A stretch of 64,000 bases of DNA from Salinibacter sp. 10B. GTDB taxonomy: Bacteria; Bacteroidota; Rhodothermia; Rhodothermales; Salinibacteraceae. Below, in pieces: positions 1-12,092 of this stretch. The stretch spans positions 532,065 to 596,064 of the forward strand of contig NZ_MQWC01000004.1 in NCBI RefSeq assembly GCF_002954405.1, written 5' to 3'. The translations under genes and the position numbers were made by a program. The notes beneath the pieces are model-generated. The model did not search any database and was not told where the DNA came from. It saw nothing but the letters and a program-made list of their open reading frames with translations. The first letter of the stretch is position 1, and every line of letters starts with the position of its first letter.

Positions 1-3000
1 CGATTCTCCGACTCAGCAAAGCTTCCATATCGATGATCGAACTGGTGAAACATTTTCGCCTCGTATAATGGCAGGTACGTATCTTCCTCATTCACAAATC
101 GATTGCCCCGGAGCTCAAATCCCTCCGTCTCCATGTCCTCCCGTGTATAGAAGAGATCGCTATCACTCGACATGTTGAAATGTCCTTGCTTGAACGACAC
201 GCCCCACGGATTTTCATTCTCCTCCTCATTGATGAGTACGGGCGCGGCCCGGTAAAGCTTTTTCGTAAGCTTTGCGTCTTGCTTCGATCGGAAGGTCGGA
301 CAGGTACCAGTATTCGGGTTGATCGTGTACAACTCCTTGCGCGTGAGCGTGAAGTGCCGGTCCTCCTCTGATAGCTGCTCCGGCTGCGTCAGGAAGAAGG
401 CGAAGTCGATCTCCCGCTCTGGCGCACCCAGTCCCGTCAGCGTGAGAAGACAGAACTTCATGCGACTGTCAACACCGTAGAAGAGCTGCTCTCGATTAGC
501 GAAGTCGAAGAGACTCACAAGCTCCCGATTATCTACAATCGCGTTGAAGTAGTCCTGCGTGTAGTAGTCCGTTGCGATCCCGCTCGGCACAATGACGCCC
601 GACCGTCCCTCTGGATCGACAACCTGTCGTACCAGCCCAGCGAAAATCTGGTACACGTTGATCCGGCCCACAGCTGTGAGATCATACCTTCCACTCTTCT
701 TCAGGTAATCTCCCAAGGCGTTGCTGAAATGCTGGGCCTGCTGGTACTCGTCGTAGAGAGGATCACCTTTTTCCTTCAGGTCCTCAATCATTCCCTTTCG
801 CTTAGCAGCCGTATCCGCACCAGCGATTGCCGGTGCCTTCATCGCAAAGAACTCCTTCTCTTCCAACTGAATTTGCTCCCACGGCGGATTGCCGACCACC
901 ACATCGAACCCACCGTCGCCGTTCTCGCCGAAGACCTCTGGAAACTCCAGGTGCCAATGAAAGAAGTTGTATTCCTCGGCCATTTCCTCAACGCGAGCCC
1001 GCTGCTCGTCAGGGATCGCGTTAGGCCCCTGCCGCTGCACGCGAAACAGCTCCCCGTAGGTCGGCGCCCAGTCGGTGCCCTCTGGCATCGGCCAGAAAAA
1101 GGCGGCGGTGTACATGTCTGCCTCCAACTTCGCCTGCCGCCGCTCCTCATCATTTAAGTACTCGGCGTAGATCTGTCGGGCCTGTTTCGGCTTCTCCTGC
1201 GCCACCTGTTCGAAATCTCCGGCCTCGTAAGCTACGCGCGGCTCGGTCGTCACCGCACTCTCGAAGGCGCCCATCTGCACGCCCTGCCCTTCTTTGCTTT
1301 CTCTCCGTTCCGTCTTGGTCTTCTCCCGAAAGGCCTTCGAGGTCTCTCCATCATCACCGGATCGACTCTTGCTTTTCGTGGGAAAGGCCTCATACGGAAT
1401 CCCATCGTCCAAAAGCTCGGGGGTGGCACCAATCAGTGAGTTTCCCTGCTTGATGTGGTGATCGAGGAAGCTGAGCGGCCGGTCCTGAACGCTCGCATTT
1501 ATCCAGAGACTCACCTTGCAGAGCTCCACGGCCATCGGGTTGAGGTCAACCGCATAGATACAGCGGGCCAGCACCGCTCGCTTCGCCTGGCGCACGGCCC
1601 GCTCGGTCGGGTACTCGTCGCCGCTCCGCAGCCGAGCCACCTCCGCCCCCATCACGTCATTGGCCTTCACGAGGAAGTGTCCGCTCCCGGCCGCTGGATC
1701 TACCACGTCCATCGACAATATCGCCTCTTCGCCCGCCTCACGCTCCCCATCGGACAGGTTGGCATACTCCTCCAGAAGACCCGTCGTCACCTCCCCGAGG
1801 TCGTCCTCATCGACCACAGGCAAGCCGCTATCCTGGAGCCGATCTCGCATCACAGGGAGCAGGGCACTTTTCACGAGCTCGTTCACCAGCGAGTCCGGCG
1901 TGTAGTAGGAGCCGCTCTGCTTGCGCTCCAGTCCTCGCGGGTCAAGAATGAACTCGTTCGCCGACACCTCTCGGTCCTCGATCGTCTCCGGGTCCTCCGT
2001 CACGCGGGGCGTGTAGTCGAGCAGATTCTCGTACACGGCACCCAGCTCCTCCACGCCGAGGTCGAGGTACGAGATGCGCTGCTGCACGCCCTCTCGCTCA
2101 ATCAAAGTGAGCTTCTGAATGGCTCGCAGGAGATGCGCGTTGTCACATGCCCGCTGGGGCAGGTACTCGCCCTTTTCCAAGTCAAAGAGCTCGCCGTCGT
2201 ACCCGAACACCCCGAGCGGTTCGGCGCCTTCACTCACCATTTCAAACGTCGCCCGGAGCCCGTGCCAGAGGTCGGAGTGCTCCGCTCGGTCCGGTATATT
2301 TCCTTCCGCCTTTTCCCGAAGCGCGGTGAGGCTGTAGTCGCTCCAGTACACGTCTTTCAGTTCTGCGTCGGCATCCGGAACGAGACCCCGCTGTTCAGCG
2401 AAGAGGAGAAACAGGATGCGGTACACGACCCGCAGAATTTCGCTGTAGAAGTCGCGGGCCGCGTCGGGATCGCCCTGGAGCTCCTCAATCAGTTCTGGGT
2501 CTCCCTGAAGGAAGCCATTCCCCAGGTACTCGATTGCGTCGACGACCTGTGGGCGCAGGTCCTCCCCAATCTTCACGCCGGTGGCACGGGCTGTCTGGTG
2601 AAACTGCTCCAGTGGGAGCTGAGCATCCTCCTCGTCGTCATCCACCGCCGGGCGAAATCGACTGGCGTGAGCCAGCCGGTAGAGCGCACGGAAGTCCGCG
2701 TAGTTGCGGGTCTCGAAGATGCTTTCGAGATCGAACTCGACGTAGCCCTTCGAGAAGGTGTGGTAGTAGTCCCGCAGCAGCCGGAGCGTACGCCCATTGG
2801 AGAGCACGGCCCAGAGGTCGTTCTCATTCACGTTGAGGAAGACCTGCATCATGTCATGGGGCGACTTCGCCTTCGGCCCGCGGCCGGTTCCCTGCCGCTC
2901 GTCGAGGTCCTGCGCCGGAGCGAGCAGGTGCGCGGCCGGCGCATGCTCCCCATCCCATCCGCGATGGGAGATCGGGAAGCGAAGATCATCGTCCTCCGTC

Positions 3001-3329
3001 GGGATCAGGTCCGCTCGCTGAAACTCCGGATCGAAGTCCAGCAGCTGGAGGAGCGGAAGAAGCCACCGCCGCCGCGTCTCGGAGACGTCGAGGTCGTTCA
3101 GTCGGTCGGTGTCCTGCCGAATGCTGTCCCAGCGCTCCTGCAGCAGCTCCCACGCCGCCGCAATTTCCTCTTCGAGTGCGTGGGCGGTATTCGGCGTATC
3201 GGTCCACGGCACCTCGAACGCCGCTGGCCCGGTGTGCGGCCGATCCGTGCTCGGGGTGCGCATCGAGTCGATGAACGCCTCCGTGAGGAGCCCGCCGGAG
3301 GTGGTGATGTGGGAAGTGGATTCGGGCAC
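1..3329 (-). CDS. drmMI: Eco57I-type adenine DNA methylase, DISARM DrmMI-like (C-terminus off window)
   Basis: Probable N6-adenine methyltransferase that marks host DNA for an anti-phage system. The frame is open from a GTG at 3329 to the left edge, about 1109 residues, so the end is missing. A helical N-terminal region opens with the ITTSGGLL segment seen in large methylases of this kind. The SAM-binding motif DPAAGSGHF is near residue 545 and the catalytic NPPW near residue 814, with a YTP segment ahead of motif I, as in Eco57I-type enzymes. No ATG exists in this frame before the GTG, and a stop lies upstream of it, so the GTG is the best start. It follows the PD-(D/E)XK gene by 45 bases on the same strand and is probably the fourth gene of the operon. 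A long open frame on the opposite strand is only its antisense shadow. A type IIG restriction-modification enzyme is the alternative; the DrmD-like neighbour favours DISARM. Confidence 0.72.
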   Translation of the reverse strand, partial: MPESTSHITTSGGLLTEAFIDSMRTPSTDRPHTGPAAFEVPWTDTPNTAHALEEEIAAAWELLQERWDSIRQDTDRLNDLDVSETRRRWLLPLLQLLDFDPEFQRADLIPTEDDDLRFPISHRGWDGEHAPAAHLLAPAQDLDERQGTGRGPKAKSPHDMMQVFLNVNENDLWAVLSNGRTLRLLRDYYHTFSKGYVEFDLESIFETRNYADFRALYRLAHASRFRPAVDDDEEDAQLPLEQFHQTARATGVKIGEDLRPQVVDAIEYLGNGFLQGDPELIEELQGDPDAARDFYSEILRVVYRILFLLFAEQRGLVPDADAELKDVYWSDYSLTALREKAEGNIPDRAEHSDLWHGLRATFEMVSEGAEPLGVFGYDGELFDLEKGEYLPQRACDNAHLLRAIQKLTLIEREGVQQRISYLDLGVEELGAVYENLLDYTPRVTEDPETIEDREVSANEFILDPRGLERKQSGSYYTPDSLVNELVKSALLPVMRDRLQDSGLPVVDEDDLGEVTTGLLEEYANLSDGEREAGEEAILSMDVVDPAAGSGHFLVKANDVMGAEVARLRSGDEYPTERAVRQAKRAVLARCIYAVDLNPMAVELCKVSLWINASVQDRPLSFLDHHIKQGNSLIGATPELLDDGIPYEAFPTKSKSRSGDDGETSKAFREKTKTERRESKEGQGVQMGAFESAVTTEPRVAYEAGDFEQVAQEKPKQARQIYAEYLNDEERRQAKLEADMYTAAFFWPMPEGTDWAPTYGELFRVQRQGPNAIPDEQRARVEEMAEEYNFFHWHLEFPEVFGENGDGGFDVVVGNPPWEQIQLEEKEFFAMKAPAIAGADTAAKRKGMIEDLKEKGDPLYDEYQQAQHFSNALGDYLKKSGRYDLTAVGRINVYQIFAGLVRQVVDPEGRSGVIVPSGIATDYYTQDYFNAIVDNRELVSLFDFANREQLFYGVDSRMKFCLLTLTGLGAPEREIDFAFFLTQPEQLSEEDRHFTLTRKELYTINPNTGTCPTFRSKQDAKLTKKLYRAAPVLINEEENENPWGVSFKQGHFNMSSDSDLFYTREDMETEGFELRGNRFVNEEDTYLPLYEAKMFHQFDHRYGSFAESEN

Positions 3330-3374
3330 GACCCAAAGAAGAGATTTAAATGACAGACAAAAATTCGAGCGGGC

Positions 3375-4496
3375 TCAAGAAGCGTTTCCGAGCACAGGCT
3401 TAAGTCGCTCGGCAATGCGGCTGAGTTGATCGGCGAGGTCATCCAGAACCTCGTCCCGCTCAACCCCGAGCTCTAAGGGAAGAGGAATGAGAATCGATGT
3501 GGGACGTGCCTCCCCACTCCGAACCTGAAACTCCGGCTCCAGCGCCCTCCGTGCTCCACTCTGCTGTTCAGGAGTTTGCGTGTCGAGACGCATCCACAAG
3601 GGCGACCGCCCCTCGCGGGCCCACCACACATACAGCAACCCAAGCGTCACATCGAAGCCATAAAGACTTGTGACGAAGGCATATCGATTCCGACTCGTGG
3701 CCATTCGAGTGTCGGAGTCCCATCCTTCGTCCAGCCGGGCTCGGAGATCCTGAACGATCTGAGTCAACTGACGCACCCGTTTCCCTACATCCTGTCCAAT
3801 CTCGTCTCCGCGAAGCGGATGGAATCCCTCACTACTGTAGCGCTCACACAGGCTCTGGACCTGACGGACATCCTCTAATAGCTCTCGCATTCCACCTTCC
3901 GCTTGGAGCGCAGAGGCTAGTGCATCGAGCACTTCTTTCCACGACCGGAGAAGCAGCGTCGTCTCATTCGACAGCTTCAAAACAAACGAACGATCTTCGG
4001 ACGAGCCATTTGCAGGAATGAATGATGAGGTCGCCCGGTCTCGAATCTTCGGCCAGAGATATTCTCGTCGCGGGTGCGGTACGAGAAAGAGCAGGACACT
4101 ACCGGACGTGTCTGCAAGCTCTCGAAGATACCCGTTCGGTTGGTTTGTGGTAAGACCAGCCCAGAACTTCGACTCGACCAGCAACGGCACACTTCCATCT
4201 TCAGCCATTCCCCGCAGATCAGGCTGACCTTCGCCTTCATCTGTTTGCTCCTGGGTACCGAATCTAAGCGAAGACGATAGCTCCTCACCACTTTGCGTGC
4301 TCAGGTAGTCGATGAATGCCTCCCCGGCGACGCGGTGACGCAGGAGGTGACAGAGTCCCTCTGTAGCGAGATCTTCTGGGCTCTGTCCGAACTTGGTAGC
4401 GACCTGACTGAATAAACGAGTCAAAACAGTAGGGTAGCTTATACGATTTTTGTTCAGGTGCAGGAGCGGTACGTTTTCAATACCTGACGAGCACAC
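3375..4496 (-). CDS. PD-(D/E)XK nuclease-like protein in defence operon
   Basis: Putative nuclease of 373 residues; the family could not be named precisely. A PD-(D/E)XK core is visible: PD at residues 92-93, then a beta strand ending in ESK at 108-110, giving D93, E108 and K110 as candidate metal-binding and catalytic residues. The C-terminal half is helical and acidic. The only early start is a GTG at 4496, so the reading frame overlaps the end of the upstream helicase gene by 43 bases, which suggests translational coupling. No in-frame ATG occurs until about residue 97. The gene sits between the SF1 helicase and the methylase, so a role in the same defence system is inferred from context. 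It could also be an independent nuclease carried in the island. Confidence 0.6.
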   Translation of the reverse strand: MCSSGIENVPLLHLNKNRISYPTVLTRLFSQVATKFGQSPEDLATEGLCHLLRHRVAGEAFIDYLSTQSGEELSSSLRFGTQEQTDEGEGQPDLRGMAEDGSVPLLVESKFWAGLTTNQPNGYLRELADTSGSVLLFLVPHPRREYLWPKIRDRATSSFIPANGSSEDRSFVLKLSNETTLLLRSWKEVLDALASALQAEGGMRELLEDVRQVQSLCERYSSEGFHPLRGDEIGQDVGKRVRQLTQIVQDLRARLDEGWDSDTRMATSRNRYAFVTSLYGFDVTLGLLYVWWAREGRSPLWMRLDTQTPEQQSGARRALEPEFQVRSGEARPTSILIPLPLELGVERDEVLDDLADQLSRIAERLKPVLGNAS

Positions 4497-6982
4497 CGAT
4501 CAGGATCTTCATTAATATCACTCCCCGGGAAGACATTGAAGGTCCAGCCCAATTCCTGCAATTGGTTCCGTGTCCGCCAGTCTCGTTTCCATTGCCCCTG
4601 TCGCAGGTGCCACCGGGCTCCGTCGCAATACACGGCGAGTTTTATGTCGGGAAAGGCAAAGTCCGCCCGGCTTACAATTTGGTCTCCGTTTTTGATAACA
4701 AACTGAGGCTCGATGTCTTCGAGCTCCGGAATTTTCTGCAGTGCATGAAGGAGCTTTTTCTCGATCGGGGATTCGCACTGGCGCAGCTTCGGATCGACTG
4801 CTCGACCGTCCTGGGATGGCGGCTTGACCCTCATCTGCTCCGATGGCGCCCGATCCGTCACGAGCCGCCAGAGCAGTCGGTTATCCACTTGATGGGGACG
4901 TTCCTCGAACCAGGGCCGGTTGGCAAGAACAATGAGCTTCCCCCGGGCGCGAGTTGCGGCCACGTTCACCAGGCGTATTCCCGTATCTCCCCTCAGGAGC
5001 ACTCCTGGACTCGATCGTCCAGGACCGTCGACAACGTCGAAGATCACGACATCGGCTTCACTGCCTTGAAACTGATGGACCGTCCCCACTTCGACCGAGT
5101 CGAAAATTTTGCTCTCGGCTTGACGCTCCTTCTTGATCGCCTCCCGAAGCAAATTCGTCTGGGCCCGGTAGGGAGAGATAATTGCAATTGAGGGAGCCGG
5201 CGTCCCGGCTTCTCCTACGATGGCACTGGCGACCTCCATCGCGAGACCGGCGGTGTACTCGTTCTCCCAGCTTCCTTTCTCTTTCCGACACCGCCCCATC
5301 CCCGCGGTATTGCTGGTGTCGAGAAGGACCACAGGCTTTCCTGACTGCGGGGGAAGGTCGACCAGCTCCTTCCGCTGCACCTCATCCACCTCACTTTCCA
5401 CCCTCGGATAAAGGTGCTGTACTTTTTCCCAAAGTCCCTCCGTACAACGTCGCTGCGCGCGGATTTGGACGAGCGTCGAATCGTCCAGGTCTATCTCGCG
5501 TAGCTCCCCAGTTCCCGACGACACCCCGCTGAAGTCGAAGATGTCGTTTCCCATCCACTGCTGAGCGGTACGACTGCTGGACGCACTGCTCTCAAAAATG
5601 GGTCCCAGTTGTCGAGGATCTCCGGTGACGAGAAACTGCTCTTTCGCGAGGGACCCCAGGAAGACACAGAGCGCTGGGGGAGCCATTGTCGCTTCATCAA
5701 GGATCACCGTATCCCAATCCAACTCCGAAATGGGACTCGATTGCATGTACGCTGAGGTCGTCGTGGTCGCAACGATCCAGCTATCACTCAGATGCTCTCG
5801 TACGCGCTCACGGATCGTTTCCTGCGTTTCGAGGAGCTGGGCTCGAAGCGTAGCGAGTTCTTCGTCCGATGCGTGCTGATCACGCTCCTTCTTCCGTATC
5901 TCTTCCGAAAGCTGCTTCACCTTCCCATTGAGACGGTCCAGCTGCGGCGGACCAAGCAGTTCCGCGTGTTCGAGAATCTCTTGTTTCCGGGGATAGCCGT
6001 ATCGCGTGACTCTCCGATTGCTGATGAGTTTGCTATAGTGCTCATGACCCGCATTGAACTGATCTACCAGCTCTGCAAGGGCAACGTCGACGGCAAGATT
6101 TGATGGAGCAACCATCAGTACACTGTGCCCCGGATCCCGTTGGATCAGCTCCTTGACAAAGTGTGCCACTCCATACGTCTTCCCCGCTCCAGGAGGCCCC
6201 CAGAGGAGTCGTCCCCAGGGCCGCCCGAGTTCAAGTAGTTGATCAGCGACCTCCACGGAGTCTCGGTCCACAACAGCCTCCGTCGCCTCTCGCCGAAAAA
6301 TCTGCTCCACCAACCGAGGAAATCTCCGTGCCTCTTTGAGGGAAACGGCCAATTCCCGAAGCAGGTACCCTCGATCGATGATGAGTTTTGCCCCGGAGGG
6401 ATCTTCTGGAACTCTCTGGTGAAAGGATATGAAGAGCTTACTGCTCTCAGGCTCTTGCCCAACCACCTTTCCTCGAACCATCCGTCCACCGGTCACACGG
6501 AGGTCAACTGGAACCTCGGTTAGATTGACCGCACTTTCTTCCGTTTCTATCTCAACGATTTGAATATGCCGGCCCTGCGTTCGCGTCAAATGCGTCACTC
6601 CATGTACAGTTAGGCTGATGGCTTCCAACCCAGCTGCGTATTCCTTTACCGCCTCCGCGACATGGTCCGCCTGGAACTCAATGTCGTCACCGGTAGAGCC
6701 CGAACCCGTCTCGTCGTTTTCGGCCTCCGACCTGACGAGCCGAGTCCCCTTGGTGGTCAGTTTCACCTTCTTGCCGTTCCGTGATATGACGAAATGTTTT
6801 TCACCCTGCTGGTTGAAGAACTCGGCATATGCTCGAAACTGGTCATCGAGCGACGCTGCCCCAGCGTGCTTCTTTGCAACTTTCCTCCATGTTACCCAAT
6901 CACCTGTGGACTCGGAAATCAACGACGCTATAGTCTGGGCAAGCTTGATCTCGTCTTGCTGTGTAAGATCGTTCTTCCCCAT
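4454..6982 (-). CDS. SF1 (Upf1-like) helicase with C-terminal DUF559 nuclease-like domain
   Basis: Large ATP-dependent DNA or RNA helicase of 842 residues. The N-terminal 250 residues have no motif I can name. Walker A is GPPGAGKT at 262-269, Walker B is DEAT at 429-432, and a motif III-like TGDPRQLGP follows near 453. The later SF1 motifs include VGTVHQFQGSEAD and NVAATRARGKL. From about residue 735 (CESPIEKKLL) it continues into a DUF559/Vsr-like fold with ADF at 773-775 and YCDG at 785-788 followed by RWH. A Tyr stands where many DUF559 proteins have the first acidic residue of the ExD pair. It lies 56 bases downstream of the DrmD-like gene on the same strand. Such helicase-nuclease fusions are common in phage defence; membership of this operon's system is inferred from its position. 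Confidence 0.78.
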   Translation of the reverse strand: MGKNDLTQQDEIKLAQTIASLISESTGDWVTWRKVAKKHAGAASLDDQFRAYAEFFNQQGEKHFVISRNGKKVKLTTKGTRLVRSEAENDETGSGSTGDDIEFQADHVAEAVKEYAAGLEAISLTVHGVTHLTRTQGRHIQIVEIETEESAVNLTEVPVDLRVTGGRMVRGKVVGQEPESSKLFISFHQRVPEDPSGAKLIIDRGYLLRELAVSLKEARRFPRLVEQIFRREATEAVVDRDSVEVADQLLELGRPWGRLLWGPPGAGKTYGVAHFVKELIQRDPGHSVLMVAPSNLAVDVALAELVDQFNAGHEHYSKLISNRRVTRYGYPRKQEILEHAELLGPPQLDRLNGKVKQLSEEIRKKERDQHASDEELATLRAQLLETQETIRERVREHLSDSWIVATTTTSAYMQSSPISELDWDTVILDEATMAPPALCVFLGSLAKEQFLVTGDPRQLGPIFESSASSSRTAQQWMGNDIFDFSGVSSGTGELREIDLDDSTLVQIRAQRRCTEGLWEKVQHLYPRVESEVDEVQRKELVDLPPQSGKPVVLLDTSNTAGMGRCRKEKGSWENEYTAGLAMEVASAIVGEAGTPAPSIAIISPYRAQTNLLREAIKKERQAESKIFDSVEVGTVHQFQGSEADVVIFDVVDGPGRSSPGVLLRGDTGIRLVNVAATRARGKLIVLANRPWFEERPHQVDNRLLWRLVTDRAPSEQMRVKPPSQDGRAVDPKLRQCESPIEKKLLHALQKIPELEDIEPQFVIKNGDQIVSRADFAFPDIKLAVYCDGARWHLRQGQWKRDWRTRNQLQELGWTFNVFPGSDINEDPDRCARQVLKTYRSCT

Positions 6983-7038
6983 GGTCTCTCAGAGTAAGCA
7001 GAACAAAAAATGAGCGGGGGCAACAGTGACCGACATCG

Positions 7039-9918
7039 TTAAGCGGGGTAATATACCGTCATAGCCAGGACGTCGAAGCTCCCCTCGGCAATGTCCGCAA
7101 TGCCTTCGGTCCAGGATGTCACCTGTCCTCCTTCGGTTTCGGCCAACTCTTCCTGCATCGAACGCCGCTCGTGAACGATCTCGGTTCGCCGTTCGTCAAC
7201 GGCCACCCGAAGCTGGTCACTCACGTCCTCGCGAAGCTCGGAGAAATCCTTGAGCGTCTCTCTCACCTCGTCTTCGGTGCGAGTTTGTGCAGTCGGGTCT
7301 GCCTCAATCAGTTGCTGCACCTGCTCCTCAGAGAGAGCTCCCTCGGCGTAAACCGGAAGGCCGACCGGCACCAGTTCCTCTAAAATCGAGGACGACGATC
7401 CGTCGCCGATCGCCACGGCGTAGCGGGCCAGAAGATGAAAGACCATCGCGACCTCCTCGGCTTCGTCAACAACGTAGTAGCTGGTACGGCCGTAGTGCTC
7501 TTCTGAGGGACGAAAGGTCTCTTGCTTCACCAGCTCCACGAGTCGACGAACGAGTGGGTGCCCAAGGTCGAGGACCGTCACGTCCGGATCGTCCAGCCCG
7601 AAAGACGGATCGAAGGTGGCCCGCTCGATCACGCGCCCAACAGACTGCGTGCGGAGCTCCGGATGGGCAATCACAACTCGCAACGAGCCATCACCATTCT
7701 CCTCTACTCGGCATCCAAAGCGGTCTAATCCGCTTCGTACAAAGCGCTCAATCTGCTCGGGTGAGCCGATCGTGCGTTCGGTCTCCTCCAGCCGCTCTTG
7801 AATGTCCGGCAATCGAATGTCGGTCTGGCCGTAGAAGCTGTCGTCCTCGATACGGTCGAGCGTTTCGGTCGAGAACGGATCTTCGACATCGCTCGTCGCC
7901 TCGCTCGATTCGCTGGATTCCTCATCGAAGAGGTGCAGCTGCTGCGGGCCGACCTTGATGTCGTGTTGAGCCAGGAGCTCCATGATGTCGGTCTCCTCCC
8001 CGAAGTACGGCGGCGAAAACCCGTATTGCCGCCGGATCTCCGCGGCCTTGTCGACCAGCACGCTCATGATGCTCGCGTCGAGGGTCTCGTCCATCACCAT
8101 CGTCCGGATGTGGACCGTGTCCTTCTGCTGCCCGAACCGGTCTACCCGCCCGTTTCGCTGCTCCAATCGATTCGGATTCCAGGGGAGTTCGTAGTGGACG
8201 ACCTGCGCCGCCGCGTGCTGGAGGTTCATTCCCTCCGAGATGGCGTCCGTCGCGACGAGGACGGCCTTCTTCGACCGATCGAACGACTGGAAAACCTCCC
8301 GACGCTTGCGCTCGGGGAGGCCGCCGTGGATCGTAAACACGTCCGTGTCGGCAAACCGATTGGAGTCGCCAATCTCCTCGGCCAGGTATTCGAGCGTGTC
8401 GACGTAGCGCGTGAACACGATCACCTTCGGGTCTTCCCGAAGCCGATCCGGCAGGACAACCTCCAGAAGCTTCGTCAACTTGTTGTCTCGGGAGGACGTC
8501 ACGCTGCCGGCCGCCTCGATGGCCTCCTCCAGCTGCTCAAGCTCGTTCTCGATGGCAGCCACGTCTCCGAAGACGGAGCGCTCGGTGCGCTTCGACGCCT
8601 CTTCGCTGTCGAGGCGCTCGCCGGTGTCCTCGTCGAAAACGTTGGCCTTTGCCTCCTCCTCCGAAATCGACACCTCTGCACTCAGCTCCTCCTGAATACG
8701 CTGCTGAAGGCTCTCCTTTCGGTTCTGCAACGACCGGCGCAGGGCCTCCGGCGAGCTGAGGGCACGCTTATGGAGGTGGAGGACGGTCCAGTTTGCCAGT
8801 GTGCGCGTCTGTGCACTTCCCCGTTCGGCACTCGACAAGACCCGCTGCCCGTATTCTTCGACGGCCTCGATCGCCTTCTGCTCGTAGGAGGTCGGCGGTA
8901 CAATAATCTCCTCTTGGTCCCGATCCGGAAAGGGATTGTCGTCTGCGTCTTGGCCAAACCATTCCTGCACGTCCTGCCGCCGGCGCTGGCATACATAGTT
9001 TGCTGCCCGATCCCCGTGAATCGTCGGGTCGTGGGACGGCCCCGTGACGAGCCCTTCTCTGAGCAACCGGAGAAGGCTCGCGAATGAGTCGGTGTATCCG
9101 TTGTGTGGGGTCGCGGTGAGGAGAAGCAGATGTTTGATGCGGTCGCTGTCAGCAACCGCCTGCGCAAACTCCCACCGCTGCGTCGACGCCGATTGGCCCG
9201 GGCTTGACTCGTGCGGCTTCGCGGCAAGGTGCGCCTCATCGAAGAGGGCAACGTCCCAGTCCTGCTCCAGAATCTGATTCTTGACGGCCGGCTGCTTCGC
9301 GTAGTCGATCGAGGTGATCAGCACCGGGAACTGTCCCCACGGACTGGCCCCGGCCGGGAGCTCGCGCTCCATTTCCCGGCGGTGCCGGGACGAGATGATT
9401 CGAGCGGGCAGGTGGAAGAAGTAGTCCAGCGCCTCCCGCCACTGCTCGCGCAGGGCCGCCGGGACGACGACCAGCACGCGAGACGCCCGCTGTCGGGCCA
9501 TGAGCTCCGTGATGATGAGTCCGGCCTCGATCGTTTTCCCGAGCCCCACGTCGTCGGCAAGGAGCATCCGCACCCGCTCCTGCATCTCAAGCGCCATCAC
9601 GACCGGCACCAGCTGGAAGTCCTTCGGGATGACGCGACTCCGCTGCAGGCTCAGGAGCGGGGCCGTGCCGTGTAGCATACTTAGCCGGTGGGCACGAAGC
9701 AGAAGATCCTGGGCCGCCTGGGCGCCGATGAGCTCCCTCGACGGCCAGTCCAGATTGCTCCGATTGACGTCCTCCACCGGAAGATAGAATCGCTGCTGTC
9801 CGGCATCACCGCTATCGATCGGCGTCGCGGTAAGAATCTCGTCGTCTTGCTGGTCGACGCGCCAAAGTCGATCACGGGCGGAGATGACGGTGCCGGGCGA
9901 AAAGCTCTGTTGGGCCAT
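7039..9918 (-). CDS. drmD: SNF2-family helicase, DISARM DrmD-like
   Basis: SF2 helicase of the SNF2/HepA type, 959 residues. After a short N-terminal PGTVISARDRLW segment typical of DrmD-like proteins, the ATPase motifs are clear: DDVGLGKT at 122-129, DEAH at 227-230, TATPHNG at 268-274, and the second RecA lobe with QRNGRVDRFGQ at 587-597. A coiled, Glu-rich insertion occupies roughly 400-480. The C-terminal 300 residues are acidic and unassigned. In class 1 DISARM this protein works with an adenine methylase and the DrmA/DrmB pair to block incoming phage DNA. It is the first gene of the minus-strand defence operon and is preceded by about 300 bases without a gene. A generic HepA-like helicase is the alternative reading. 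Confidence 0.75.
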   Translation of the reverse strand: MAQQSFSPGTVISARDRLWRVDQQDDEILTATPIDSGDAGQQRFYLPVEDVNRSNLDWPSRELIGAQAAQDLLLRAHRLSMLHGTAPLLSLQRSRVIPKDFQLVPVVMALEMQERVRMLLADDVGLGKTIEAGLIITELMARQRASRVLVVVPAALREQWREALDYFFHLPARIISSRHRREMERELPAGASPWGQFPVLITSIDYAKQPAVKNQILEQDWDVALFDEAHLAAKPHESSPGQSASTQRWEFAQAVADSDRIKHLLLLTATPHNGYTDSFASLLRLLREGLVTGPSHDPTIHGDRAANYVCQRRRQDVQEWFGQDADDNPFPDRDQEEIIVPPTSYEQKAIEAVEEYGQRVLSSAERGSAQTRTLANWTVLHLHKRALSSPEALRRSLQNRKESLQQRIQEELSAEVSISEEEAKANVFDEDTGERLDSEEASKRTERSVFGDVAAIENELEQLEEAIEAAGSVTSSRDNKLTKLLEVVLPDRLREDPKVIVFTRYVDTLEYLAEEIGDSNRFADTDVFTIHGGLPERKRREVFQSFDRSKKAVLVATDAISEGMNLQHAAAQVVHYELPWNPNRLEQRNGRVDRFGQQKDTVHIRTMVMDETLDASIMSVLVDKAAEIRRQYGFSPPYFGEETDIMELLAQHDIKVGPQQLHLFDEESSESSEATSDVEDPFSTETLDRIEDDSFYGQTDIRLPDIQERLEETERTIGSPEQIERFVRSGLDRFGCRVEENGDGSLRVVIAHPELRTQSVGRVIERATFDPSFGLDDPDVTVLDLGHPLVRRLVELVKQETFRPSEEHYGRTSYYVVDEAEEVAMVFHLLARYAVAIGDGSSSSILEELVPVGLPVYAEGALSEEQVQQLIEADPTAQTRTEDEVRETLKDFSELREDVSDQLRVAVDERRTEIVHERRSMQEELAETEGGQVTSWTEGIADIAEGSFDVLAMTVYYPA

Positions 9919-10215: not shown

Positions 10216-10653
10216 TCAATCGAGTAGGAATCGAACGTCGAGATGACTGGGGAGATCGGGTTCGTCTCCCTCGACCCTCATGTAGGTTTCCTCATTCAGG
10301 ATGGGAACGTAGCTGCACCGACACCCCTCATTGGCACAGTTCCCGTGAGGAAGTGGTGTTTGGTTACGTGCTTCCTGAATTGTGTACTGCTTGCCATCCC
10401 GCTTCAGGCATGGCGTACACGTGTCCTGATCGCGTCGGGACATAACCATCACTCTGTGTGCTCCGAAGCGCTCCGCTCGATCGAGGAGCTTGGCCGCGAA
10501 CACGTCCGACTCCAATTCCTCGGGAGCCTCTTCTTCCAGGTATTGACCGGATAGAAACTGTTGTGCCTCTTGTCGGGAAAACTCGGTATGAGCCCTTACA
10601 ATCTTCTCGAATTTGCTCTCGGTCGGCCAACCGGGGACCAGGGGAAAATCCAT
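10216..10653 (-). CDS. Hypothetical protein with Cys-rich C-terminal motif
   Basis: Protein of 145 residues that I do not recognise. The N-terminal half is charged and helical. The C-terminal half carries CTPC, then DGKQY, then PLPHGNC and CRCSY, a Cys/His pattern that could hold a zinc ion. A similar CxxC...DGK...P.PH..C.CR arrangement occurs at the ends of phage MuF-type head morphogenesis proteins, so it could be a phage remnant; this is a weak resemblance from memory. It is the last gene before the tRNA-Leu scar, on the same strand as the defence operon but separated from it by about 300 bases. It looks less GC-rich than the chromosome to its right. Confidence 0.5.
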   Translation of the reverse strand: MDFPLVPGWPTESKFEKIVRAHTEFSRQEAQQFLSGQYLEEEAPEELESDVFAAKLLDRAERFGAHRVMVMSRRDQDTCTPCLKRDGKQYTIQEARNQTPLPHGNCANEGCRCSYVPILNEETYMRVEGDEPDLPSHLDVRFLLD

Positions 10654-10800: not shown

Positions 10801-10860
10801 CGTGATTCAGGGTCACGTGGCCTTTACGGCCGTGGAGGTTCGAGTCCTCTCTCGGGCACC
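10801..10860 (+). pseudogene. 3' fragment of tRNA-Leu(CAG), probable island attachment scar
   Basis: The anticodon stem CGTGA/TCACG (10801-10805 and 10813-10817) encloses a loop with anticodon CAG at 10808-10810. A long class II variable arm follows, then a T-arm (GGAGG, TTCGAGT, CCTCT at 10834-10850) and the 3' acceptor strand CTCGGGC with discriminator A (10851-10858). The matching 5' acceptor strand GCCCGAG and the D-arm are absent from the preceding 100 bases, so this is not a working tRNA. A displaced 3' end like this is what remains at the far end of an element integrated into a tRNA gene. The intact tRNA-Leu should then lie left of the window. Confidence 0.75.
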
Positions 10861-10921: not shown

Positions 10922-11142
10922 CTCTATTCCCCTTCCCTCTGTGCCCGTTTCTCCCCTCTCCTCGCAAAGCGGGTCATCCCCCCTAATTGTACATCCCACT
11001 GTGTACAGGCTCTTCTCCAGTGCCAGCCGTTGATTGCGACAATTGTGATCGCCCTCAACTCTGGCCGTTCCCCTTTGGACACCTTCCAGGGCCTTCGTCG
11101 TATGTCCCTTCCCCACCAGCGACGTACAAGGCCTTTCTGCTC

Positions 11143-11805
11143 ATGACGACAACCGCAGACGAGTCTTCCCGTCCCGACGCCTTCGCGAATCTGCCCAAAC
11201 ACATCAGCTACGTGCCTCAGGGGGGCGGCTCCGGCCTGCAGGTCCGTATTTGGCGAGACGGGACTACCTACCAGAAGTTTTTTGCCCAAAGCCACTTCGA
11301 CACGGACGAGGACTGCCTCGCTGCCGCCCGGTTTTGGCGCGACCTCAAACTCCAGGAGCTTCCGGCGCCTCAAGGTCCCGGCGTAGAGCAGACGGAGAAT
11401 GTGCGTGAAAAGATCAGCGAGAAGATGACGCGGACCGGCATCCGGGGCCTGGGCTTCCAAGTCGGAAAGAAAAGCGGCACGTTTCGCCTCTACGCAACTG
11501 CCCAGTGGCGAGAGGAAGGACAAAATTGGTCGAGGATGCGCTCCCTACACGCCCATGGGATCGATGGCGCGGCCACTCAACTCTCCAGGATCCTCGTCAC
11601 GCAAATCCCGGAGCACAAAGGAACGAATCCCGCCCAACTGGCAACGGAGTGCGCCCGGGCGCTTCGCCGGCTCATCAGCCGCATCTATCGGTCTGGACGG
11701 TACCCCTCTTCCCGCCATGGTCACGAGGAGGAGCGATATGAGGCCCTTGCCCGGTTCGTCGAGCAGACGGCGTCCCTGCCCGTGGAACCGCCGGACGATG
11801 CCTAA
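11143..11805 (+). CDS. Hypothetical protein with AP2-like segments
   Basis: Protein of 220 residues from the ATG at 11143; the frame is open further upstream, but that part is unlike a normal protein start. The segment LQVRIWRDGTTYQKFF followed by AAARFWRD resembles the three-stranded sheet and helix of AP2/integrase N-terminal DNA-binding domains. A second similar stretch, FRLYATAQWREEG to GIDGAATQL, follows near the middle. The C-terminal part is helical and basic. It stands alone between the tRNA-Leu scar and tRNA-Arg, a position typical of mobile-element cargo. A DNA-binding function is inferred from these patterns; no catalytic motif is visible. Confidence 0.5.
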   Translation: MTTTADESSRPDAFANLPKHISYVPQGGGSGLQVRIWRDGTTYQKFFAQSHFDTDEDCLAAARFWRDLKLQELPAPQGPGVEQTENVREKISEKMTRTGIRGLGFQVGKKSGTFRLYATAQWREEGQNWSRMRSLHAHGIDGAATQLSRILVTQIPEHKGTNPAQLATECARALRRLISRIYRSGRYPSSRHGHEEERYEALARFVEQTASLPVEPPDDA

Positions 11806-12010: not shown

Positions 12011-12018
12011 GTTGGTCG

Positions 12019-12092
12019 TGCGCTCGGGAGGATTCGAACCCCCGGCCTTCGGTACCGGAAACCGATGCTCTGTCCGACTGAGCTACGAGCGC
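12019..12092 (-). tRNA. tRNA-Arg (anticodon CCG)
   Basis: A full cloverleaf on the minus strand: acceptor GCGCTCG paired with CGAGCGC, D-arm with AGCTCAGTCGGAC, anticodon stem TCGGT/ACCGA enclosing TTCCGGT, and a T-arm with GGTTCGAATCC. The anticodon CCG reads CGG arginine codons. CCA is not encoded. The gene ends in its own hairpin terminator. Confidence 0.93.

Follow-up and report, generated by a model that had tools for sequence, protein, structure and literature searches.

ARMADA, named in the preprint of Bell et al. 2025, combines a SNF2 helicase, a PglX-like methylase and a YprA/DruE-like helicase, the last of which carries a C-terminal Vsr-type nuclease (PMC12458937). In Type I operons the YprA gene usually comes first, the order being reversed in many archaea and cyanobacteria, and Type II operons have a fourth gene, ArmD (RelE-UvrD), after ArmC (PMC12458937). 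The experimental test described in this preprint bears on Type II from E. coli, not on Type I: Type II, including that of strain ATCC 8739, was assayed, protection was direct and did not involve cell death, and none of the four genes could be spared (PMC12458937). ARMADA is a relative of DISARM, and the locus described here, which an earlier note had read as a possible DISARM variant, is not DISARM itself. It is very probably an ARMADA Type I operon with the A-B-C order (SNF2 helicase, methylase, YprA/DruE-like helicase) that has taken up two unrelated blocks of defence genes. What stands of the earlier reading is the DISARM-related SNF2/methylase pair with two foreign enzymes between its members.

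The window, i.e. the whole stretch of DNA analyzed, is 64,000 nucleotides long (C4:532065-596064 of assembly GCF_002954405.1, genome G000). Its four ORFs of interest, which lie on the minus strand in the order previously reported (SNF2 helicase, SF1 helicase–DUF559 protein, PD-(D/E)XK protein, Eco57I-type methylase), are all intact and co-directional by ORF reading (Table 1). Core gene B starts at 3329, extends 873 bases past base 1 and ends at G000:C4:531191, with no internal stop. On this strand, the successive gaps from core gene A to the small cargo helicase gene left of the window are 56, 29, 45, 17, -8, 151 and -4 bases, the cargo genes beginning 17-56 bases from the core genes. The 56- and 45-base spacings agree with the earlier note; the 43-base overlap that it placed between the SF1 and PD-(D/E)XK genes hinges on GTG 4496 being the start codon of the latter (3375-4496, 373 aa). 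We dropped this start codon since the ATG of the nearest homologue, found in genome G504, aligns to the residue encoded by TTG 4424. With TTG 4424 as the start, the two genes are separated by 29 bases and do not overlap, so that the overlap is probably a start-codon or ORF-calling artefact.

Table 1. Features of the locus and of its surroundings; positions are given in the window or on contig C4 of genome G000.
Feature	Position	Strand	Remarks
Intact tRNA-Leu(CAG)	C4:513563-513650		Left end of the probable element
Tyrosine integrase	C4:515236-516351		Adjoins tRNA-Leu
Core gene C (ArmC-like)	C4:520673-525877		DEAD helicase with fused MZB/DUF1998, 1,734 aa
Antisense ORF	C4:525984-527009 (= L003:11985-13010)	Antisense	341 aa, GC3 51.8%; between cargo helicase and ArmC
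Small cargo helicase	C4:527048-528451	Same as core A/B	
CBS-HEPN protein	C4:528448-529281	Same as core A/B	DS-11 model NF053863, E 4e-31
DarG	C4:529433-530578	Same as core A/B	DarG, E 2e-92
DarT	C4:530571-531173	Same as core A/B	PF14487, E 1e-46
Core gene B (ArmB-like)	Window 1..3329 (part in window)	-	Eco57I/PglX-type adenine methylase, 1,400 aa
A-B cargo, PD-(D/E)XK nuclease-like protein	Window 3375..4424	-	349 aa from TTG 4424
A-B cargo, SF1-Vsr protein	Window 4454..6982	-	Upf1-like SF1 helicase with C-terminal Vsr/MTES_1575-like nuclease, 842 aa
Core gene A (ArmA-like)	Window 7039..9918	-	SNF2/RapA-type helicase, 959 aa; PADLOC, NCBIfam and E. coli ArmA matches
Right attachment-site-like repeat	Window 10801..10860	+	60 bases long, matching the 3' part of tRNA-Leu(CAG) at 58/60 positions

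To the left of the window, where drmA, drmB and drmC had been expected, one finds instead the genes for DarT, DarG, a CBS protein and a helicase, an antisense ORF and the gene for a DruE-like helicase. The DarT and DarG genes, which overlap by 8 bases, are both complete, giving a DarTG pair that differs from known ones by being embedded between two ARMADA genes. The CBS protein appears to have a CBS + HEPN architecture like that of DS-11, a CBS-HEPN protein that needs both domains (DefensePredictor, PMC13092281), and displays an RNTVFH motif (RX4-6H, read by eye), although its score against the DS-11 model NF053863 (108 bits) is under the cut-off of 260. The antisense ORF, for which we found no family match, is a candidate defence or regulatory gene. 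Since this ORF and 1.2 kb separate ArmC from the rest of the operon, ArmC may have its own promoter or be a separate transcription unit. The C-terminus of core gene C gave no direct nuclease profile match; it is homologous (E 5e-7) to the domain of the SF1 protein that resembles MTES_1575 and Vsr, and both have a D...DG motif (read by eye).

Core protein A matches DrmD best among PADLOC profiles (405 bits, vs 318 bits for BrxHII), its NCBIfam DrmD score of 436 bits being under the cut-off of 610; core protein B matches PADLOC DrmMI (264 bits) and Pfam Eco57I; core protein C reaches 434 bits with DruE vs 52 bits with DrmA (PADLOC), the DrmA match being limited to the helicase part. All three core proteins match the ARMADA proteins of E. 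coli ATCC 8739, namely ArmA (E 2e-53), ArmB (E 2e-30) and ArmC (E 7e-41, better than DruE III at 2e-33), with 26-38% identity over part of their length only. In a tree of the large helicases, core protein C clusters with proteins from A-B-C loci (haloarchaea, ANME-2, Heimdallarchaeota, Chloroflexi), while ArmC II and DruE III of E. coli fall elsewhere, a starred branch separating it from ArmC II; as the two E. coli proteins form long branches, which meet, their exact position is unsure. No RelE-UvrD ArmD gene, the mark of Type II, lies beside ArmC in the element. The DrmB_fam profile, which detected its controls, and the DrmC_I profile, which detected 10 of 14 controls, found nothing in the whole G000 genome, and in the neighbouring proteins submitted to PADLOC neither DruH nor any further Druantia partner was detected. 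Note that the same genome has a second ARMADA Type I locus (G000:C1:26745-42701, covered by L005 and L008). Its order is C-A-B, its contig is 90 kb long, and small genes and the gene for an E1-E2 (ThiF) protein (PADLOC E1-E2, 5e-154) come after it.

Altogether, a BrxHII-like helicase, a PglX-like methylase and a YprA-like helicase are present together at the locus, and the YprA homologue, with DUF1998 fused in the same protein, is closer to Druantia than to DISARM. Like class 1 DISARM, the locus has a DrmD-like SNF2 gene beside a DrmMI-like methylase gene, but it has a single DruE-like fusion in place of DrmA/DrmB; this third gene and the lack of DrmB and DrmC in the genome rule out DISARM membership, and a methylase without drmA/drmB beside it is what the earlier note had named as refuting its reading. 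Likewise, the large helicase best matches the DruE models of Druantia, but its partners are a SNF2 helicase and a methylase. By comparison, the three core genes and their A-B-C order are those of ARMADA Type I in archaea and cyanobacteria, and the carrier is probably a tRNA-integrated element, as shown for E. coli ARMADA (PMC12458937). What sets the locus apart is that its operon encloses two blocks of further defence genes; we found no mention of operon-internal cargo in the main text of the preprint (PMC12458937).

The SF1 protein contains an Upf1-like helicase (residues 253-690; Pfam AAA_11/AAA_12) followed by a Vsr/MTES_1575-like nuclease at about residues 730-836 (MTES_1575 below its cut-off, Vsr match 3.5e-3). 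Like MkoA and MkoC of Mokosh, it joins an SF1 RNA-helicase-like core to a nuclease, but the nuclease is Vsr/MTES-like rather than PLD, and the match to PADLOC MkoA (174 bits) is limited to the helicase part; no PLD domain was found in the SF1 protein or in the neighbours tested. The similarity of this protein to the best relatives found, about 30% identity, is confined to the helicase part, and its phage homologues also correspond to the helicase part only.

The second protein of this block has no family match among Pfam, PADLOC and NCBIfam profiles. Its alignment with homologues reveals P68-D69, E84-x-K86 and Q95-P96..Y99 as invariant in 8 homologues (numbering from TTG 4424). In its AlphaFold2 model (pLDDT 79), residues 1-184 resemble N.BspD6I (Z 7.4), EcoT38I (7.3), EndoMS (5.5) and YaeQ (5.0) according to VIA-align. 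The Z values are modest; still, several independent PD-(D/E)XK structures retrieved together, along with the motif, make it likely that the predicted 349-aa protein has a PD-(D/E)XK nuclease-like fold. The top Foldseek rows obtained with the same model were transaminases and were judged meaningless. None of the homologues was found in plasmids or viral contigs, and those found elsewhere in the order (Rhodothermales) stand alone. Locus L025:8969-11014 (G246:C118) has a 682-aa ORF, at a contig end, that is apparently a tandem fusion of two copies of this family.

As judged from position and composition, the SF1-Vsr and PD-(D/E)XK genes make up the cargo of the A-B junction, and DarTG, the DS-11-like CBS-HEPN gene and the small helicase gene that of the B-C junction. 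In the G000 operon, the GC3 of the cargo (SF1 61.9, PD-(D/E)XK 57.4, DarT 56.7, DarG 66.2, CBS 52.9, helicase 55.3%), i.e. 53-66%, is below that of the core (77.5, 72.9 and 78.5%, the SNF2 helicase gene having 77.5%), i.e. 73-79%. The earlier note was close to the mark with its alternative of a nested second system, the extra genes being inserted defence cargo. This close form of the operon was seen in just two of 244 genomes of the class, G000 and its closest relative, G504, which belongs to the same family. The G504 locus comprises A, a PD-(D/E)XK gene, B, about six small genes and C, with neither SF1-Vsr nor DarTG, and displays the same GC3 contrast (core 78-80 vs cargo 52-70). The two genomes share 64-69% identity in the core proteins vs 37-38% in the PD-(D/E)XK protein. 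G504 is the only relative with a PD-(D/E)XK homologue at this A-B position, and the conservation of its place could mean that it is functionally linked to the core and not simply carried along. In contrast, none of the other ARMADA loci examined has the SF1-Vsr gene. More generally, the four-gene order is not repeated in about 100 related loci, and the recurrence of the PD-(D/E)XK gene alone, in a single relative, does not support a conserved variant of DISARM with nuclease effectors.

The operon is carried by a 29-kb stretch that is probably an integrative element at tRNA-Leu, with the repeat as the element end. The tRNA-Leu gene and its 60-base repeat bracket 29.3 kb containing the integrase gene, a DUF3987 protein gene, the ARMADA operon and a probable phage head-protein remnant. 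The left flank, up to tRNA-Leu, is syntenic in sister genomes, where the right flank is on other contigs or far away; a clean empty tRNA-Leu site was not seen in them. We also considered tRNA-Arg (12018-12092) as the integration site and rejected it, because its end is not repeated on the left side; tRNA-Leu fits. Region 10216-10653 of the window weakly resembles phage head morphogenesis/minor head proteins (E about 1e-3) and is probably a prophage remnant beside the operon. An ORF without family match spans positions 10987-11805; at the nucleotide level it shares 79% identity with part of G515:C8, from the same genus.

We scanned 84,980 species genomes using a methylase alignment, which yielded at least 80 loci. 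The survey set consisted of the 79 complete loci, taken from the scan matches listed and from other fetched loci, where A, B and C are all present and their order can be read, 27 being A-B-C and 52 C-A-B; an insert was counted if it was at least 500 bp long. Inserts occupy the B-C junction in 21/27 A-B-C loci and the A-B junction in 10/27, vs 6/52 C-A-B loci with an insert (C-A 2/52, A-B 4/52). They contain NB-ARC/TPR, GmrSD/HEC-05, AbiD, NERD-helicase, metallo-beta-lactamase, PDC-M19B, HEPN, Uma2 or DUF2887 genes, among others, mostly differ in content between loci and in some cases lack a recognisable gene (e.g. Haloquadratum, 715 bp). The same junctions have repeatedly taken up different genes. 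Cargo-free A-B-C operons also exist, in Natrinema (gaps under 5 bases), Allomeiothermus, ANME-2, Elusimicrobia and Heimdallarchaeota loci. Fisher's exact test for an association between gene order and cargo gives 6e-9, a value that overstates the association and is not valid here: only about three order changes occurred on the methylase tree, too few for order and cargo to be called independently associated. Viral contigs gave only five distant ARMADA-like methylase matches.

Several other arrangements came to light among these loci. In cyanobacteria (L114:16644-18731, L115:15527-17599, L120:9766-11838 and L122:14973-17091), an ArmD homologue (ParE/RelE-like + UvrD; in L122 it is split) occupies the B-C junction instead of following the YprA helicase as described for Type II. 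Two ARMADA operons have cargo proteins of 734 and 731 aa (L070:18010-20214 and L079:13992-16187) with no Pfam or PADLOC match. In Thermus and Allomeiothermus (L068, L069 and L143), ARMADA comes after a conserved tubulin-like protein, a 689-aa protein and BrxL, which is a BREX-ARMADA hybrid layout; ArmC is followed, in L068 and L069, by an ArmD-related helicase of the UvrD type.

How far the cargo and the core form a unit can be read in several ways. It is possible, though on balance unlikely, that the locus is a mere side-by-side defence island with no unit beyond each single system, its spacing reflecting ordinary island compaction: the element is small and crowded with defence genes, the cargo is seldom the same from one locus to the next, and the link between order and cargo goes back to so few independent order changes. 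Such a view fits poorly with the conservation of the A-B-C core from archaea to bacteria and with the cargo lying 17-56 bases from the core genes on the same strand. The PD-(D/E)XK protein, and possibly SF1-Vsr, might instead be lineage-specific working parts, for example nucleases that ArmA/ArmB translocation would recruit or license, as suggested by the tight placement of both genes between A and B (gaps of 56, 29 and 45 bases), by the PD-(D/E)XK homologue kept in place in G504 despite core and cargo divergence, and by the homology between the Vsr-like domains of SF1 and ArmC. We regard this as rather improbable, given that SF1 is missing from G504 and all other ARMADA loci examined, that PD-(D/E)XK homologues of the order stand alone elsewhere, that the GC3 of both genes is cargo-like and that the PD-(D/E)XK protein has diverged much more than the core between the two genomes. 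The more ambitious proposal that A-B-C ARMADA is a modular platform, with cargo swapped at both junctions under operon control, and that SF1-Vsr and PD-(D/E)XK are core-dependent effectors here, appears more doubtful still. Finally, a class 1 DISARM variant with added nucleases, to which the DrmD and DrmMI matches of the SNF2 helicase and the methylase point, is hardly credible in view of the missing DrmB and DrmC, the DruE-like third gene with its fused DUF1998 and a DrmD score below the NCBIfam cut-off.

With the locus taken as an ARMADA Type I operon carrying two cargo blocks, a plausible working scheme is as follows. ArmB would methylate host DNA as a self mark, and ArmA and ArmC would translocate on incoming unmarked DNA, which the predicted Vsr-like domain of ArmC would cut. 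The cargo would provide separate weapons that share the transcription of the operon and act when the core is evaded. DarTG defence relies on DNA ADP-ribosylation: DarT would modify thymidine in ssDNA in this way, under the restraint of DarG. The CBS-HEPN protein probably cuts RNA upon an adenine-nucleotide signal, and the SF1-Vsr and PD-(D/E)XK nucleases probably attack foreign DNA.

In conclusion, this operon is an added member of the recently named ARMADA family, with an uncommon layout in which two defence blocks are nested in one operon. The part most deserving attention is the recurrence of operon-internal cargo: the survey adds that, in A-B-C ARMADA, various defence genes often split the operon at the same junctions. 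Because of this recurrence, the junctions can be used to find defence genes by position, in a manner comparable to the core-gene-flanked hotspots exploited for defence gene discovery, and the PD-(D/E)XK, SF1-Vsr, 734-aa and 731-aa cargo proteins are concrete defence candidates.
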